The notes under the pieces are model-generated. The model saw nothing but the letters and a program-made list of their open reading frames with translations, was not told the origin of the DNA and made no database searches. Both the position numbers and the translations under genes were made by a program. Of a stretch of 64,000 nt of DNA, positions 5,152-58,774 are shown one piece after another. Every line of letters begins with the position of its first letter. Position 1 is the first letter of the stretch. The stretch is from Chloroflexota bacterium (GTDB taxonomy: Bacteria > Chloroflexota > Dormibacteria > Dormibacterales > Dormibacteraceae): contig VBEK01000123.1 of the NCBI GenBank assembly GCA_005889135.1, positions 1 through 64,000 of the forward strand, in the 5' to 3' direction.

Positions 5152-6462
5152 ATGGTAACCGGGACGATCGATACCCCCAAGCGGCTCGAAGACCTGCACG
5201 TCCGCCGCGACCTCGTCGCCAGCCTGCTCCTCCGCACCCTGGCCTTCGCCGACCAGCTGACCGGCTCCGCTCTCGAGCAGCGCCTGGGCCTTCCGTTCGA
5301 AACGTTCTCGATCCTGATCGACGAGTTCGAGAAGAACCAGCTCATGGACACCCGGGGCGTGTCCAACGACCCGACCCTCGAGGGCCGCCCCTACCCGGTG
5401 AAGATGAACTACGCGATCTCCGTCGCCGGCCGCGCCCGAGCCGCGGAGATGTCTACCGTGCAGACGCGATACCTGGGCCCCTGCCCGATCAGCTTCGAGG
5501 ACTACCTCGACTTGATCCGCTCCCAGGTCACCGGCAAGTCGCCGGTCACCGACGCCCAGCTGAAGAAAGCGCTCGGCGAGCTCGAGCTCGAGCAGCACGT
5601 CATCGACCAGATCGGCGGCGCCATGGTGTCGCGGGCCTCGCTGTTCATCTTCGGCGCCCCGGGCAACGGCAAGAGCACCATCACCGAGCGCATGGCGCTG
5701 CTGATGGGCGCCCCGATCGAGATCCCGCACGCGGTCGCGATCGGCGACGAGATCGTCCGCGTCATCGACCCCGTCTACCACAAGCGCGCCGACGGAGACC
5801 AGCCTGTGGACCGCCGGCTGGTCAAGGTCGAGCGCCCGGTGGTGACCGCGGGCGGTGAGCTCAAGCTTCAGCAGCTCGACCTCACCTACGACCCGCAGAA
5901 CCGCTACTACGAGGCGCCCCTGCAGTGGAAGGCGAACGCCGGTGTGCTGGTGATCGACGACTTCGGCCGCCAGGAGGTTCCCCCGATGCGCCTCCTGAAC
6001 CGATTCATCGTGCCGATGGAGAAGAAGATCGACTACATCGACCTCTCGGCATCCGGGCGCAAGATCGAGCTGCCCTTCCTGTGCCAGGTCGTCTTCTCCA
6101 CGAACCTGTCCCCGACCGAGCTCGTCGACGAGGCCTTCCTCCGCCGCATGGCGTACAAGATCGGCGTCGGCAACCCGTCGCCGGAGGCCTTCGGCCGCAT
6201 CCTCCGCTACGAGTGCGACCGCCAGGGCGTGCCCTGGGATGAGAAGGCCGTCGGGTATCTGCTCAACAACCTCTACGGCAAAAAGCCGCTTCGCGGCTCG
6301 CACCCGCGCGCGCTGGTGGCGCGCCTGGTCGACCTGGCGAACTACCGGCAGCAGCCGCCGCGTCTCACTCCGCAGACCCTGAAGGAGGCGTTCGACGCCT
6401 GCTTCAACCCCGCGCTCGGAAGCCTCGTCGAGGACGACTGGGCCCGACCGGCGATCGGCTAG
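5152..6462 (+). CDS. AAA+ ATPase, MoxR/chaperone-like, function unknown
   Basis: 436 residues. An N-terminal helical region of about 150 residues precedes one AAA+ module: Walker A GAPGNGKS at 168-175, Walker B VLVIDD at 265-270, sensor-1 STN at 316-318, then FLRRMAYKIG, where R331/R332 are arginine-finger candidates. The predicted role is ATP-driven remodelling of an unknown partner. The gene stands alone: it is divergent from dinG and convergent with plsC, with a palindromic array directly after its stop codon. Similar single ATPases occur in Chloroflexota and Actinobacteria, some near Tad loci; any link to the Tad locus 30 kb away is conjecture. The start is the ATG 9 bases after a TAATAT box. 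Confidence 0.85.
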   Translation: MVTGTIDTPKRLEDLHVRRDLVASLLLRTLAFADQLTGSALEQRLGLPFETFSILIDEFEKNQLMDTRGVSNDPTLEGRPYPVKMNYAISVAGRARAAEMSTVQTRYLGPCPISFEDYLDLIRSQVTGKSPVTDAQLKKALGELELEQHVIDQIGGAMVSRASLFIFGAPGNGKSTITERMALLMGAPIEIPHAVAIGDEIVRVIDPVYHKRADGDQPVDRRLVKVERPVVTAGGELKLQQLDLTYDPQNRYYEAPLQWKANAGVLVIDDFGRQEVPPMRLLNRFIVPMEKKIDYIDLSASGRKIELPFLCQVVFSTNLSPTELVDEAFLRRMAYKIGVGNPSPEAFGRILRYECDRQGVPWDEKAVGYLLNNLYGKKPLRGSHPRALVARLVDLANYRQQPPRLTPQTLKEAFDACFNPALGSLVEDDWARPAIG

Positions 6463-6604
6463 TTCAGTCGCAGGGGAAACCCTGCCGATAGCGCGGGAAT
6501 GCCCGTTAGTCCGGACTATCCCCTCATTTGGGTCGCGGGAATGCGCGTTAGTCGCGACTATCGCTTCATTTCGGTCGCGGGAATGACCGTTAGTCGCGAC
6601 TATC
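6463..6604. repeat. Palindromic array A: three 42-bp units
   Basis: Three copies of GTTAGTC(G/C)(C/G)GACTATC at 6505-6520, 6547-6562 and 6589-6604, exactly 42 bases apart. The first copy has the CCGG core, the other two CGCG. The 26-base spacers are similar to each other (share TCATTT and GTCGCGGGAATG). A degenerate fourth half-site (TTCAGTCGC) lies at 6463-6471, on the same 42-base grid. The array fills the gap between the convergent AAA+ ATPase and plsC genes. There is no T-tract, so a simple terminator role is unlikely. Confidence 0.95.
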
Positions 6605-6622
6605 CGATAAGGCCCGCCGAGT

Positions 6623-29101: not shown

Positions 29102-29449
29102 GTCGCCTTGACGGGATAGTCGCGACTAACGGGGGGTCTGGACCGCCAAGAACACGGATAGTCGCGACTAACGAGGGTCCCGCGCGCCGAGAACGCGTGA
29201 TAGTCGCGACTAACAAGAGTTGGCGACGTCGAGGAGCCGCGATAGTCGCGACTAACCATGCGTCCTGGATGCTCCCTCCGGGTCGTGGGGGTGGGTTGTC
29301 CTGAGCATGCTCAGGTGGGTCCCCTGCCTCGGCTCTCCAAGTCCCGTCGCGGCGGGCTTTTGGTCGGCCTTGCGGACTCCGGGGTCCCGATTGATGAACT
29401 GTTGGGCAACCCGCACATCACCCACAGCCCATCGGGAGCGACTCCAATA
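29102..29449. other. 348-base gap: array B plus about 190 bases without a gene
   Basis: The left part (29115-29256) is palindromic array B. The rest holds a perfect 14-base palindrome CTGAGCATGCTCAG (29301-29314) and a small hairpin CCCG/CGGG followed by CTTTT (29343-29361, plus strand), which looks like a weak intrinsic terminator without a matching plus-strand gene. I see no coding frame, tRNA, SRP or 6S-like signature. Confidence 0.6.
29115..29256. repeat. Palindromic array B: four 42-bp units
   Basis: Four identical copies of GATAGTCGCGACTAAC at 29115-29130, 29157-29172, 29199-29214 and 29241-29256, exactly 42 bases apart. The 26-base spacers vary but the first two share a GGGTC...GCC.AGAAC pattern. 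Unlike the other three arrays it does not lie between convergent genes but between aspS (ends 29450) and the start of the small membrane gene. Confidence 0.97.
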
Positions 29450-43381: not shown

Positions 43382-44304
43382 ACGCTGTGCCCCTCGTCAT
43401 CGGCATCGGCGCGGCGATCGGCGCCTACCTGCTGACCATCGGCATCATCGCGTCGCGCACCGCTGACGCGACCGCGCTGGCCCGCGAGCGCCTCGCCCGG
43501 CAGGAGGTCGGGCTCGGACAGAGCGCGGTCGCTCTGCAGCTGGAGCGGCCGTTCACCGAGCGCCTCTTTGGCCCGATGCGGCGGTGGCTCGACCGGCAGA
43601 TGCTGCGCCTGACGCCGGAGGCTCAGGCCGCAAACTTCCGCCGCCAGCTCGACTTCGTGGGCAACCCGATGGGCCTGGACCCGGTGAGCCTGCAGACCCT
43701 GCGCATCGCCGCCGCGGCGGCGTTCGGCGCCATCGGCACCGCCATCGGCATGTTCTTCGGCACGCCGTTCGCGATCGGGATCGCGCTCGTGGCCGGCGTC
43801 GCGGTCGGGTTTTACCTTCCGGTGGTGTGGCTCGACCAGCTCGTCCGCGACCGGCGGACAGAGCTCGAGGCGTCGTTGCCCAACGCGCTCGACGTGGTGG
43901 CGATCAGCATGGAGGCGGGGCTGGGCCTGGACCGGGCGCTGGAGCAGCTCGTGCGCCACCAGGACGATTCCCTGACTCTGCTGGTCGCGCGCGCCCTGCG
44001 CGAGATTCAGCTGGGCCGCCCTCGCCCCGACGCGCTGGAGGAGATGGCCGAGGCCACCGGCATCGACGACTTCGCGTCCCTCGTGCGCGGCATCCTCTAC
44101 GCCGAGCGCACGGGCGTGCCGATCGCGCGCACAATCGCCGCCCACGCGGCGCAGATGCGGGTCAAGCGCCGGCTGAAGATCCGCACCGAGGCGGCGCGCG
44201 CGTCGCTGAAGATCCTTATCCCCACCGTGGGGTGCGTCTTCCCCACGCTCTGGCTGATCCTGCTCGGACCGGCGCTGCTCGTCGTCCTGACCCTGGGGCA
44301 CTGA
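43378..44304 (+). CDS. tadC: Tad inner-membrane platform protein TadC
   Basis: 308-residue partner of TadB with the same F-domain layout: N-terminal helix, paired helices around 110-150, the domain PNALDVVAISMEAGLGLDRALEQLVRHQDDSLTLLVARALREIQLGRPRPDALEEMAEATGIDDFASLVRGILYAERTGVPIARTI, and a C-terminal helix VGCVFPTLWLILLGPALLVVL. ATG 43378-43380. Last gene of the plus arm; palindromic array C starts 3 bases after its stop. Confidence 0.92.
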   Translation: MNAVPLVIGIGAAIGAYLLTIGIIASRTADATALARERLARQEVGLGQSAVALQLERPFTERLFGPMRRWLDRQMLRLTPEAQAANFRRQLDFVGNPMGLDPVSLQTLRIAAAAAFGAIGTAIGMFFGTPFAIGIALVAGVAVGFYLPVVWLDQLVRDRRTELEASLPNALDVVAISMEAGLGLDRALEQLVRHQDDSLTLLVARALREIQLGRPRPDALEEMAEATGIDDFASLVRGILYAERTGVPIARTIAAHAAQMRVKRRLKIRTEAARASLKILIPTVGCVFPTLWLILLGPALLVVLTLGH

Positions 44305-44306
44305 CG

Positions 44307-44406
44307 GATAGTCGCGACTAACGCGCGTCCTGGTGGCAGAAAGCCACGGATAGTCGCGACTAACGCGCGTCCTGGTGGCGGAAAGCCTCGGATAGTCGCG
44401 ACTAAC
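44307..44406. repeat. Palindromic array C: three 42-bp units
   Basis: Three identical GATAGTCGCGACTAAC copies at 44307-44322, 44349-44364 and 44391-44406, period exactly 42. The two spacers are nearly identical (GCGCGTCCTGGTGGC then AGAAAGCCACG or GGAAAGCCTCG), so this array expanded recently. Fills the gap between convergent tadC and the MBL-fold gene. Confidence 0.97.
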
Positions 44407-56165: not shown

Positions 56166-57008
56166 CTACAGGATGTGGAACACCGTCACGTAGAAGTAGA
56201 CGAGGATCGGCGGGAAGAGGATCGAGTCGATGCGGTCTAGCACCCCGCCGTGGCCGGGTATCAGGTGGGACGAGTCTTTGACGTCGGCCAGGCGCTTCAT
56301 CTGCGACTCCACCAGGTCCCCCACCAGGGCGCTGGCGCCGACCAGGAATCCGAGGACGATGGCGTGCAGCGGGCTGATCCCGAGCACAGCGGAAACGCCG
56401 ATCGTCATCACGATCACCGCGCCCAGGACGCCTGCGATGGCTCCCTCGAGCGTCTTCTTGGGGCTGATGTTCGCGAAGAACGGGTGGCGGCCGATGCGGC
56501 TGCCCACGAGCAGCGCGGCGGCGTCGCTGACGACCACGGCGAAGATCGTGAACAGCGTCCAGACCAGGCCGTTGGGCTTCGACGTGTACAGCAGCAGGTA
56601 GAAGTTGAAGGGCATGCCGATGTACAGGGCGCCGGCCAGGCCCATCGCCCAGCGGCTGAGGCCCTGCCGACGGCCGGGCAGGAACAGGAACGCTCCAAGT
56701 CCACCGACGAGGGCGAGCGCCAGCACCAGCGTGACGTCGACCTCCTTGAGGACGGTGCCGCTGAACGCGAAGAAGGCGCCGAGCGGATAGAGCAGCCACG
56801 CGGGCGCGCGCGAGCCCATCTTGTCGGAGAGGCCGTGGTACTCGTACAGGGCGAAGCCGCCGAGCATGAGCACGAGCGCGTAGACCCCGTAGATGCCGGC
56901 CAGGACCAGGCCGATGACCAGACCGAGGATGACGAACGCGCTGAGGATGCGCACCATCAGCGGACTGGGCTTCCAGGCTCGCGCGAGAGGCGCGTTGCCA
57001 GTCGTCAA
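56166..57008 (-). CDS. cdsA: Phosphatidate cytidylyltransferase
   Basis: 280-residue polytopic membrane enzyme making CDP-diacylglycerol from CTP and phosphatidate. The CDS signature is complete near the C-terminus: SQMKRLADVKDSSHLIPGHGGVLDRIDS. Start: TTG 57006-57008 overlapping the uppS stop (TTGA), which gives a polar N-terminus before the first helix; the ATG for MVRILSAF is a possible shorter start. Upstream in-frame sequence is a shadow of uppS. Confidence 0.94.
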   Translation of the reverse strand: MTTGNAPLARAWKPSPLMVRILSAFVILGLVIGLVLAGIYGVYALVLMLGGFALYEYHGLSDKMGSRAPAWLLYPLGAFFAFSGTVLKEVDVTLVLALALVGGLGAFLFLPGRRQGLSRWAMGLAGALYIGMPFNFYLLLYTSKPNGLVWTLFTIFAVVVSDAAALLVGSRIGRHPFFANISPKKTLEGAIAGVLGAVIVMTIGVSAVLGISPLHAIVLGFLVGASALVGDLVESQMKRLADVKDSSHLIPGHGGVLDRIDSILFPPILVYFYVTVFHIL

Positions 57009-57721
57009 CTGACGGCTGCCTCCGCCGCGGGCCGGCCGCCGAACCGGCGCACGCGCGACGCGTACTCCGCGATCGCCGCCTTCAGCTCTTCCTCGCCGAA
57101 GTCTGGCCAGAGCGTCTCGCTGACCACGATCTCCGCGTAGGCGCCCTGCCACAGCAGGAAGTTGCTCACCCGATGCTCACCCGCGGTGCGGATGATCAGG
57201 TCGGGGTCCGGGAGATCCGGCTGGTACATGCGCGCCGATAGCGCCGCTTCGTCTACGTCCCGAGCCGCCAGACCGTCCTGGATGAGACTGCGCGCGGCGT
57301 CCACGATCTCCGCTCGACCTCCGTAATTGAGGCAAACGTTGAGCACGCCGTTCTTGTTACCCGCCGTGCGCGCCATCGCCTCGTCGATGCGATCGCGCAT
57401 CCTCGCCGAGAGCTCCTCGCGCCGGCCGCTGACGACGATGCGCACGCCGCGCCGGTGCATCTCGTCGATCTCGCGCTGCATCGTCTCGTGGAAGAGGCGC
57501 ATCAGCGCCCGCACCTCGGCTCGTGGCCGGGCCCAGTTCTCGGTCGAGAAGGCGTAGATGGAGAGCGCGTGCACTCCGAGGTCCTCGCATGCCTGGAGGA
57601 CGCGCTTGATCGCCCGCACGCCCTGGCGGTGGCCAAAGCTGACGGGGCGGCCGTGGCGGCGAGCCCAGCGGCCGTTGCCGTCCATGATGATCCCGATGTG
57701 GCGGGGGACCTGGGAGCTCAA
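57005..57721 (-). CDS. uppS: Isoprenyl transferase (UppS)
   Basis: 238-residue cis-prenyltransferase making the undecaprenyl-diphosphate carrier for cell wall synthesis. Motifs: GIIMDGNGRWARRHGRPVSFGHRQG (catalytic Asp and diphosphate loop), YAFSTENWARPRAEV, and DLIIRTAGEHRVSNFLLWQGAYAEI. TTG start 57719-57721. No purine-rich ribosome-binding site is seen; a 495-base structured repeat region lies upstream. Confidence 0.95.
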   Translation of the reverse strand: MSSQVPRHIGIIMDGNGRWARRHGRPVSFGHRQGVRAIKRVLQACEDLGVHALSIYAFSTENWARPRAEVRALMRLFHETMQREIDEMHRRGVRIVVSGRREELSARMRDRIDEAMARTAGNKNGVLNVCLNYGGRAEIVDAARSLIQDGLAARDVDEAALSARMYQPDLPDPDLIIRTAGEHRVSNFLLWQGAYAEIVVSETLWPDFGEEELKAAIAEYASRVRRFGGRPAAEAAVS

Positions 57722-58216
57722 GTAGGAGGAAAGCGTACCGAGCAGACCAAAACCCGGCTTACTCGGGTAGCGAGGGCGGCCGAGTTCACCTCGGCGAGGG
57801 TGAGCAGCCCTGGCGCGAAGCGCCCGGGCGATGAGCGGGAACCATCAGGGTTCCCGCTCATAACTCAGGTGGCCAGGGCGGCCGAGTTCACCTCGGCCGC
57901 GACACGCGTTCCTGTCTGTCTCCAGGCGGGTCTGGTGGAAGACAACTCAAACAATCGGAACCGTATACCGGAGGGTGAGCAGCCCCGGCGCGAGGCGCCC
58001 GGGCGATGAGCGGGAACCATCGGGGTTCCCGCTCATAACTCAGGTGGTCAGGGCGGCCGAGTTCACCTCGGCCGCGACACGCGTTCCTGTCTGTCTCCAG
58101 GCGGGTCTGGTGGAAGACTGCTAAGACAATCCGAACCGTATACCGGAAGGAGAGCAGCGCCCGCGGCGAAGCCGCACGCGCGATGAGAGGAAACCATCAG
58201 GGTTTCCTCTCATAAG
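57722..58216. repeat. 175-bp tandem repeat with conserved hairpins between frr and uppS
   Basis: Two full units plus partial ones: unit starts at 57796, 57971 and 58146 (period 175); an extra copy of hairpin 3 lies at 57779-57795. Each unit has a GGCGC/GCGCC hairpin; a 13-bp stem ATGAGCGGGAACC/GGTTCCCGCTCAT (57831-57861, 58006-58036, 58183-58213); and a 9-bp stem GCGGCCGAG/CTCGGCCGC (57878-57900, 58053-58075). Copy 3 of the 13-bp stem has two changes that are compensated on the other arm. The last stem abuts the frr stop codon. No coding frame seen; transcribed only as part of the frr-uppS mRNA unless it has its own promoter. Confidence 0.93.
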
Positions 58217-58774
58217 TCAGACTTCCATAACTTCGCGTTCCTTGCGGTTCGCCAGGCCGTCGATCTTCTCGATGTGGGCGTCGACAGTCTTTTGGAGGCG
58301 GGCCGACGCCCGCTTCGAATCGTCCTCCGCCACCTCGCCTTGCTTCTGCAGTTGCTCGATGCGGTGGAGCTCGTCGCGGCGCACGTTGCGAATCGCGACC
58401 CGCGCCTCCTCCGCCTTCTGCTTGACGAGCTTCACGTACTCGCGCCTGCGCTCCTCGGTGAGCGGCGGGATCGGGACCCGGATCACCTGGCCGTCGCTGG
58501 CCGGGTTGAGGCCCTGCTCGCTGGTGCGCAGCGCCTTCTCCACAGCGCCGATCTGGCTCTTGTCGTAGACCTGCACGACCAGGAGGCGCGGCTCGGGCGC
58601 GCTGATCTGCGCGAGCTGGTTGAGTGGCGTCGGCGTGCCGTAGTACGGAACCATGATCCTGTCGATGAGCGCCGCGTTGGCCCGGCCGGTGCGGATGTGG
58701 GTGAGCTCGGAGCCGAGGTGGTCGACCGACTTGCCCATCTTCGTCTCCGCCTCCCGGAGGATGGGATCGATCAC
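58217..58774 (-). CDS. frr: Ribosome recycling factor
   Basis: 185-residue factor that splits post-termination ribosomes with EF-G. Typical [46 protein letters not shown] and C-terminal [39 protein letters not shown] 58772-58774 overlaps the pyrH stop (GTGA). Its stop codon is 3 bases from the last hairpin of the 175-bp repeat. Confidence 0.96.

Follow-up and report, generated by a model that had tools for sequence, protein, structure and literature searches.

Tandem Units of a Structured Repeat in the frr-uppS Gap

The window analyzed here, a 64,000-nucleotide stretch of a Chloroflexota contig, carries the operon rpsB-tsf-pyrH-frr-uppS-cdsA-dxr on its minus strand. The gap between frr and uppS spans 495 bp and holds three tandem units of a dispersed repeat (Table 1). 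An earlier account of this DNA, made without database searches (the sequence-only reading), had described a 175-bp tandem structured repeat with units from 57796, 57971, and 58146, and inspection of the sequence, find_repeats, and Tandem Repeats Finder all recover this array (score 685, period 175). Hairpin 1 of unit 3 is offset by 177 rather than by 175, because hairpin 2 of that unit is 2 nt longer. On the gene (minus) strand, the natural unit begins with hairpin 1, adjoining the frr stop codon, and the array comprises two full units and one that lacks the spacer (57776–57862). The gap is indeed unusually long, as had been claimed, since relatives that lack the element have 48–130 bp at this position, and gaps with a single unit measure about 220 bp.

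Table 1. Parts of the array and flanking genes, by position in the window
Feature	Position	Strand	Description
Unit 3 (frr-proximal) hairpin 1	58183..58213	-	13-bp stem ATGAGAGGAAACC / GGTTTCCTCTCAT, 5-nt loop; begins 3 nt past frr stop
Unit 3 hairpin 2	58157..58181	-	GCGC/GCGC outer pairs, then G.G mismatch and 6 inner bp; separates stem from third strand
Unit 3 third strand	58147..58156	-	TGCTCTCCTT; parallel Hoogsteen match 10/10 to purine arm ATGAGAGGAA
Unit 3 terminal hairpin (module A)	58053..58075	-	GCGGCCGAGGTGAACTCGGCCGC
Unit 2 hairpin 1	58006..58036	-	ATGAGCGGGAACC / GGTTCCCGCTCAT
Unit 2 hairpin 2	57982..58004	-	Outer stem GCCC/GGGC
Unit 2 third strand	57972..57981	-	TGCTCACCCT; 9/10 match to ATGAGCGGGA
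Unit 2 terminal hairpin (module A)	57878..57900	-	
Unit 1 (truncated) hairpin 1	57831..57861	-	
Unit 1 hairpin 2	57807..57829	-	
Unit 1 third strand	57797..57806	-	TGCTCACCCT
Unit 1 partial terminal hairpin	57776..57795	-	Joined straight to third strand; spacer lost
frr (upstream gene)	58217..58774	-	Stop codon 58217-58219 abuts hairpin 1
uppS (downstream gene)	57005..57721	-	

Folding of the array, compared with shuffled sequence, gives z scores of −8.4 and −8.1 for the two strands. An Rfam search of the array at gathering and relaxed thresholds returned chance-level matches only and no family, in agreement with the sequence-only reading. No T-run lies 3′ of hairpin 1, so an intrinsic terminator (a GC hairpin followed by a T-run) was rejected; the sole weak terminator-like site is at 58147–58130. 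A T-box or other riboswitch leader, prompted by AACTCAGGTGG in the window, was likewise discarded, as that stretch is missing from most copies and the element lies 3′ of genes. A conserved small ORF (GAGCAGCCCCGGCGC...) was also considered; its reading frame differs between copies.

Unit Anatomy and Compensated Stems

Read on the gene strand, the unit is about 175–190 bp long. The stop codon is followed by 2–4 nt, a T, hairpin 1 (13 bp, with the purine-rich 5′ arm ATGAGRGRAAACC), CG, and hairpin 2, and then by TGCTCNCNTT, CCGGTATACGG, ∼60 variable nucleotides, the hairpin GCGGCCGGG..CCCGGCCGC, and ∼15 nt. Hairpin 2 is built from 4 outer base pairs, a conserved G.G mismatch, and 5–6 inner base pairs. 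Hairpin 1 occurs in five main stem types and hairpin 2 in ∼12 compensated outer stems. A longer segment, CTCTGCGCGCAAAGCGGCGTTGAGGATGGGCCTTACTGAATGCATCG, replaces the lower part of hairpin 1 in the variant copies L095, L098, L099, L112, L029, and L140.

Both compensated changes that had been pointed out within the window are exact: the 13-bp stem changes from ATGAGCGGGAACC to ATGAGAGGAAACC with the opposite arm altered to match, and the paired change of GGCGC/GCGCC to GCGGC/GCCGC falls in the inner part of hairpin 2. The accompanying claim of constraint on folding is supported. Contrary to the refuting outcome named in that reading, the repeat recurs in other genomes, and its stems are compensated. 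Among 12 diverse copies, 100% of the pair cells are standard and 24 are double-changed, a result that 0 of 500 shuffles matched. Hairpin 1 comprises 1,495 pair cells, with 1,410 Watson-Crick, 8 G-T, and 8 A-C pairs; the corresponding counts are 358, 1, and 0 for hairpin 2 and 1,026, 5, and 3 for the module A hairpin. Selection at the RNA level would be expected to tolerate G-U far more often, and the scarcity of G-T pairs in the stems favors DNA over RNA.

A Third Segment that Covaries with the Hairpin 1 Stem

The 10-nt pyrimidine segment after hairpin 2 matches the purine arm of hairpin 1 as a parallel Hoogsteen partner, with T.A and C.G triples and a G facing the T-A inversion at position 2. 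G opposite a T-A inversion is a triplet familiar in DNA triplex chemistry. Across 124 copies, 84% of positions are compatible in parallel register 0, and no other parallel register exceeds 44%. The geometry fits this arrangement, in that a strand leaving the base of hairpin 1 by way of hairpin 2 can follow the major groove in the same direction as the 5′ arm. At position 6, A in the stem accompanies T in the third segment in 74 copies, G accompanies C in 34, and C accompanies A in 3. Within the window, units 2 and 3 differ at stem positions 6 and 9, and their third strands differ at those same positions, ATGAGCGGGA going with TGCTCACCCT in unit 2 and ATGAGAGGAA with TGCTCTCCTT in unit 3.

Stem type predicts the third strand when hairpin 2 type is held constant (I(stem;third | hairpin 2), z = 10, 0/1000), whereas the intervening hairpin 2 does not (I(hairpin 2;third | stem), z = 0.8). 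Between copies that are nearest by the rest of the unit, stem and third strand switched jointly 46 times, the stem alone 20 times (in part misread stems), and the third strand alone 9 times, although such counts are not independent events because the copies are related. Simple linkage as the source of the coupling is not supported by these switches or by the conditional scores; whole-module exchange between copies could account for part of it. An antiparallel Watson-Crick exchange between the third segment and the purine arm was also rejected, its best register reaching 73% with wobble pairs included and varying by subtype.

Other features speak against a triplex. In subtype B (AGAGGGA stem, 37 copies), the usual third strand CTCTCTTT fits only 3.4 of 5 variable positions, and the subtype A third strand would fit these stems better than their own. 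The poor pyrimidine-motif fits are A.A at position 8 and C.A at position 6. In addition, protonation is required for a pyrimidine triplex of 10 nt that contains several C+.

A scan for a hairpin plus third strand over 859 kb (the window and related contigs, most of which were chosen for carrying the element) yielded 88 matches, compared with 0 in first-order resampled sequence. The matches inside the window are the three units only. Twenty of the 88 are class II motifs of different sequence (CCTCCCC..GGGGAGG..GGAGGGG), several of them with a hairpin as the second loop.

Dispersal of the Repeat

The repeat occurs 3′ of ∼80 different genes. Further copies in the same genome lie behind glnB, accA, and a third gene (C122, glnB 3′ end; C183 and C184, accA 3′ end). 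A 101-base query detected it in every one of the 17 genomes sampled from the genus (its own and 16 others), often with 5–20 copies per genome. Four of 8 further genera in the family also carry it; in other families of the class it was absent but for one marginal match. When 85,000 species were scanned with an exact pattern, matches were almost confined to MAGs of soil Chloroflexi and Candidatus Dormiibacterota. Isolated matches in Peptococcaceae, Draconibacterium, and others were dismissed, their number being that expected by chance for a 17-base pattern. Nine exact-pattern matches fall in viral contigs. Tandem copies with a spacing of 170–180 are also present elsewhere.

Both ends of the unit lie within 150 nt of each other in 206 of 220 copies and farther apart in none, and no autonomous copy, with a gene between the ends, was found among the 220. 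The Y1 transposase domain PF01797 exceeded the cut-off in 0 of 25 genomes, including 16 from the genus, with positive controls, and a RAYT/Y1 transposase was accordingly set aside as the mover. Comparison of filled and empty glnB sites, the flanks of which are too diverged for close comparison, revealed no evident target-site duplication. Solo module A ends number eight or nine among the loci collected; one such hairpin, GCGGCCGGAGTGAATCCGGCCGC, lies without hairpin 1 around 1490–1530 of L030, in the same genome.

Site History and Placement at Stop Codons

Of 14 species-level frr-uppS gaps, 6 carry the element, with constant orientation, and the remaining ones hold different repeats or, at 48 bp, are almost empty. 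The convergent glnB-trxA gap contains it sense to glnB in nine genomes and antisense, facing the trxA stop, in two; one further genome retains only the module A end, and two lack the element. The history of the repeat at single sites is thus one of recurrent gain or replacement and not that of a fixed operon element. At the glnB 3′ end of genome G006 (L264), one stem subtype is represented by a truncated copy (TATGAGGGAAAACCCGGA), and 3 nt after it comes a complete copy of another subtype, an arrangement suggesting that an older copy was inserted into or replaced.

Placement was counted with one copy per upstream-gene cluster (80 clusters), using gene calls from a simple dicodon model that was trained on long ORFs of the loci and recovers the known operon. 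The gene reads into hairpin 1 in 62 of the 80 clusters, and in 43 of these 62 hairpin 1 starts at most 5 nt from the stop codon or overlaps it, often at the TGA of ATGAG. By gap type, the clusters divide into 34 convergent, 28 co-directional sense, 11 antisense, and 7 divergent. Such flush placement is not exclusive to this repeat, as the TAGTCGCGACTA arrays of the window likewise begin directly after a stop codon. In G022, a genome of another genus, several copies (L081–L099) directly follow a GC-rich terminator-like hairpin plus T, for example GGCGGGTCTTCGACCCGCCT and then TATGAG, and not a stop codon.

Unrelated Repeats with a Similar Layout or Location

Motifs that score as triplex capable (at least 7, where shuffles reach 6 at most) are found in 11 of the 14 species-level frr-uppS gaps, 6 of them being this element and 5 class II motifs. 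In all 11 the hairpin is the part nearer to frr. These motifs stem from at least two unrelated families.

Class II repeats with CCTCCCC-loop-GGGGAGG, a hairpin spacer, and GGAGGGG were noted at L149, L156, L167, L182, L220, L227, and L248 and in the frr-uppS gap of G010. They share with the unit the layout of hairpin, hairpin spacer, and third strand; sequence and motif class differ. A second dispersed family, with 42-bp units repeated in tandem and built around the palindrome GATAGTCGCGACTA(T/A), occurs at window positions 6462–6605, 29114–29256, and 44304–44406. This palindrome has nine exact copies in the window, compared with 0 expected. The array at 44304 begins 2 nt after the TGA of a gene, and the same family fills the frr-uppS gap of two relatives.

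Relationship to Known Repeats

The PIT, boxC, and TM_ECO elements are intrastrand-triplex repeats (Holder et al., 2015, PMC4666352), and that paper cites earlier work on them by Hoyne and Maher. Class III denotes purine, pyrimidine, and Hoogsteen domains in 5′ to 3′ order, and TM_ECO forms triplexes in vitro, but stable triplexes were not supported in vivo, and the motif shows no strand bias (PMC4666352). Like these elements, the unit is dispersed between genes, has a single strand that can be folded as a purine-pyrimidine hairpin plus Hoogsteen strand, varies between related genomes, and occurs in short tandem or inverted clusters. Its 13-bp stem, with the purine arm ATGAGRGRAA, exceeds the 6-bp minimum for a purine-pyrimidine stem. 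The ITxF search would have missed the 175–190 bp family because its loops were limited to 1–6 nt (PMC4666352); here loop 2 is a hairpin of 23–26 nt, in contrast to the 1–6 nt loop of PIT. The unit further departs from PIT in being a composite with extra hairpins and in having several stem types whose third strand varies with them. It differs from TM_ECO in sequence, in class (III on the gene strand or I on the complement, rather than II), and in its bias to the sense orientation at stop codons. The boxC/TM_ECO consensus CCCTCNCCCN3-6GGGNGAGGGN3GGGNGAGGG is absent from the window, and similar sequences occur in the frr-uppS gap of the relatives G005, G007, and G008. The unit is best read as a DNA intrastrand-triplex repeat and a new relative, in architecture, of PIT/boxC, which is the nearest known kind.

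Other repeat families share some of its properties. CGTC-tagged REPs (Di Nocera et al., 2013, PMC3733652) are palindromes without a dedicated transposase, and CGTC lies beside module A, on the complementary strand, in many copies; its presence is variable, however, the window copies have no clean CGTC, and module A forms no more than one end of the unit. REP/BIME elements with RAYT (GTAG families) are also palindromic and extragenic, are mostly downstream of genes near stops, and have perfect stems with subtypes, but they measure 20–40 bp and have a GTAG tag and a Y1 transposase, whereas no GTAG flanks the foot of hairpin 1. MITE-like structured repeats such as ERIC, BOX, and bcr1 are 100–200 bp long, non-coding, dispersed, and modular, with several hairpins, all of which recalls the unit. 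In contrast to them, the unit has no visible terminal inverted repeats or target duplication, nor was an autonomous partner seen. We know of no third-strand coupling described for MITE-like repeats. Our search of the open-access literature found no report of third-strand covariation in intrastrand-triplex repeats, which is limited evidence of novelty.

A Model for the Array and Its Alternatives

Dispersal, repeated gain and loss, stop-codon placement, exact complementarity, and stem-third coupling are direct observations. Considered together, they are consistent with a model, which we hold to be probable if only just, in which a DNA repeat spreads with an intrastrand triplex or hairpin fold as its selected property and is tolerated or used at gene ends. 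Each unit of the array would then be a copy of a non-coding, mobile-like DNA repeat belonging to one soil Chloroflexota/Dormibacterota family. Where the DNA becomes single stranded or strained, during replication or behind RNA polymerase, one strand would fold into hairpin 1, hairpin 2 would serve as the turn, and the third segment would occupy the major groove of hairpin 1, giving a triplex of class III (R-Y-H) on the gene strand or of class I on the complement. This fold may be the feature that selection or the copying machinery recognizes, as in PIT/boxC elements. A position just past a stop codon would do least harm to genes, and a repeat there could be used as a fork or transcription barrier or as a structured 3′ UTR. 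Triplex formation, the folding strand, the mover, and any host function are inferred.

The sequence-only reading had offered an RNA in the frr-uppS transcript, a separate small RNA, or a DNA cruciform, and is partly supported. A DNA structure comes closest, but the evidence favors a hairpin with a third strand over a plain cruciform. That the array serves the frr-uppS operon as a riboswitch, attenuator, or sRNA specific to this locus is scarcely credible: its position between two essential genes is kept in the six gaps noted above, but the same unit lies behind the ∼80 unrelated genes, which largely refutes such a role, occurs in both orientations at one site, and is replaced by unrelated repeats or an empty gap in other relatives; Rfam offers no match, and G-U wobbles are near-absent. 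A dispersed, REP-like RNA element is possible, if rather unlikely. Transcribed hairpin 1, perhaps with an RNA U.A-U/C.G-C third strand, would block 3′-5′ exonucleases or slow terminating ribosomes in the 3′ UTR and so tune the upstream gene. The close approach of hairpin 1 to stop codons and the 28:11 excess of sense over antisense copies in co-directional gaps agree with this proposal. In work cited by PMC12306157, E. coli REPs no more than 15 nt from a stop stall ribosomes, and class III pyrimidine triplexes are possible in RNA (PMC4666352). The proposal sits poorly with G-T counts no higher than those of A-C, with antisense insertions, and with the class II motifs that occupy the same gap in five relatives, as purine-motif triplexes do not form in RNA (PMC4666352).

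Two further explanations dispense with selection on a triplex. In an improbable one, the unit is a selfish element with no host function: some single-strand transposase would read hairpins 1 and 2 (with the G.G mismatch), and the third segment would act as a guide, as in IS200/IS605 and RAYT. Hairpins close to both ends, the conserved mismatch in hairpin 2, recurrent insertion, and the lack of G-T pairs all fit; PF01797 and copies with a gene between the ends were not recovered, however, and the coupling register is parallel, where guide pairing is expected to be antiparallel. Quasi-palindrome template switching, together with gene conversion, might instead keep the stems perfect and swap modules with no selection at all, which we consider quite improbable. 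Perfect complementarity with few intermediates, tandem copies, and mosaic or nested units are in line with this process, as is the finding that units 2 and 3 of the window differ jointly in hairpins 1 and 2 and in the third strand. Yet template switching yields inverted copies, so that a third strand in parallel register is beyond its reach, and the third strand tracks the stem even among copies with a common hairpin 2.

A stronger form of the DNA-fold model is conceivable, though we hold it only tentatively and short of probable. Third-strand covariation across a hairpin could mean that an intrastrand triplex is selected in living cells. In this one genus, gene 3′ ends, frr-uppS above all, would then repeatedly hold triplex-capable repeats of unrelated families and both chemistries, which may indicate a common function of triplexes at gene ends.

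Sequences of the PIT/boxC kind have been known for decades to be able to form intrastrand triplexes in vitro, but a fold or function in vivo has not been demonstrated (PMC4666352). The family described here adds what PIT/boxC do not offer: natural variants whose third strand changes alongside the stem, orthologous sites that are filled, antisense, or empty, and tight placement at stop codons. Selection on a triplex thereby becomes directly testable through third-strand swaps between natural subtypes, and the family gives a comparative basis for asking whether these triplexes are of importance to living bacteria.
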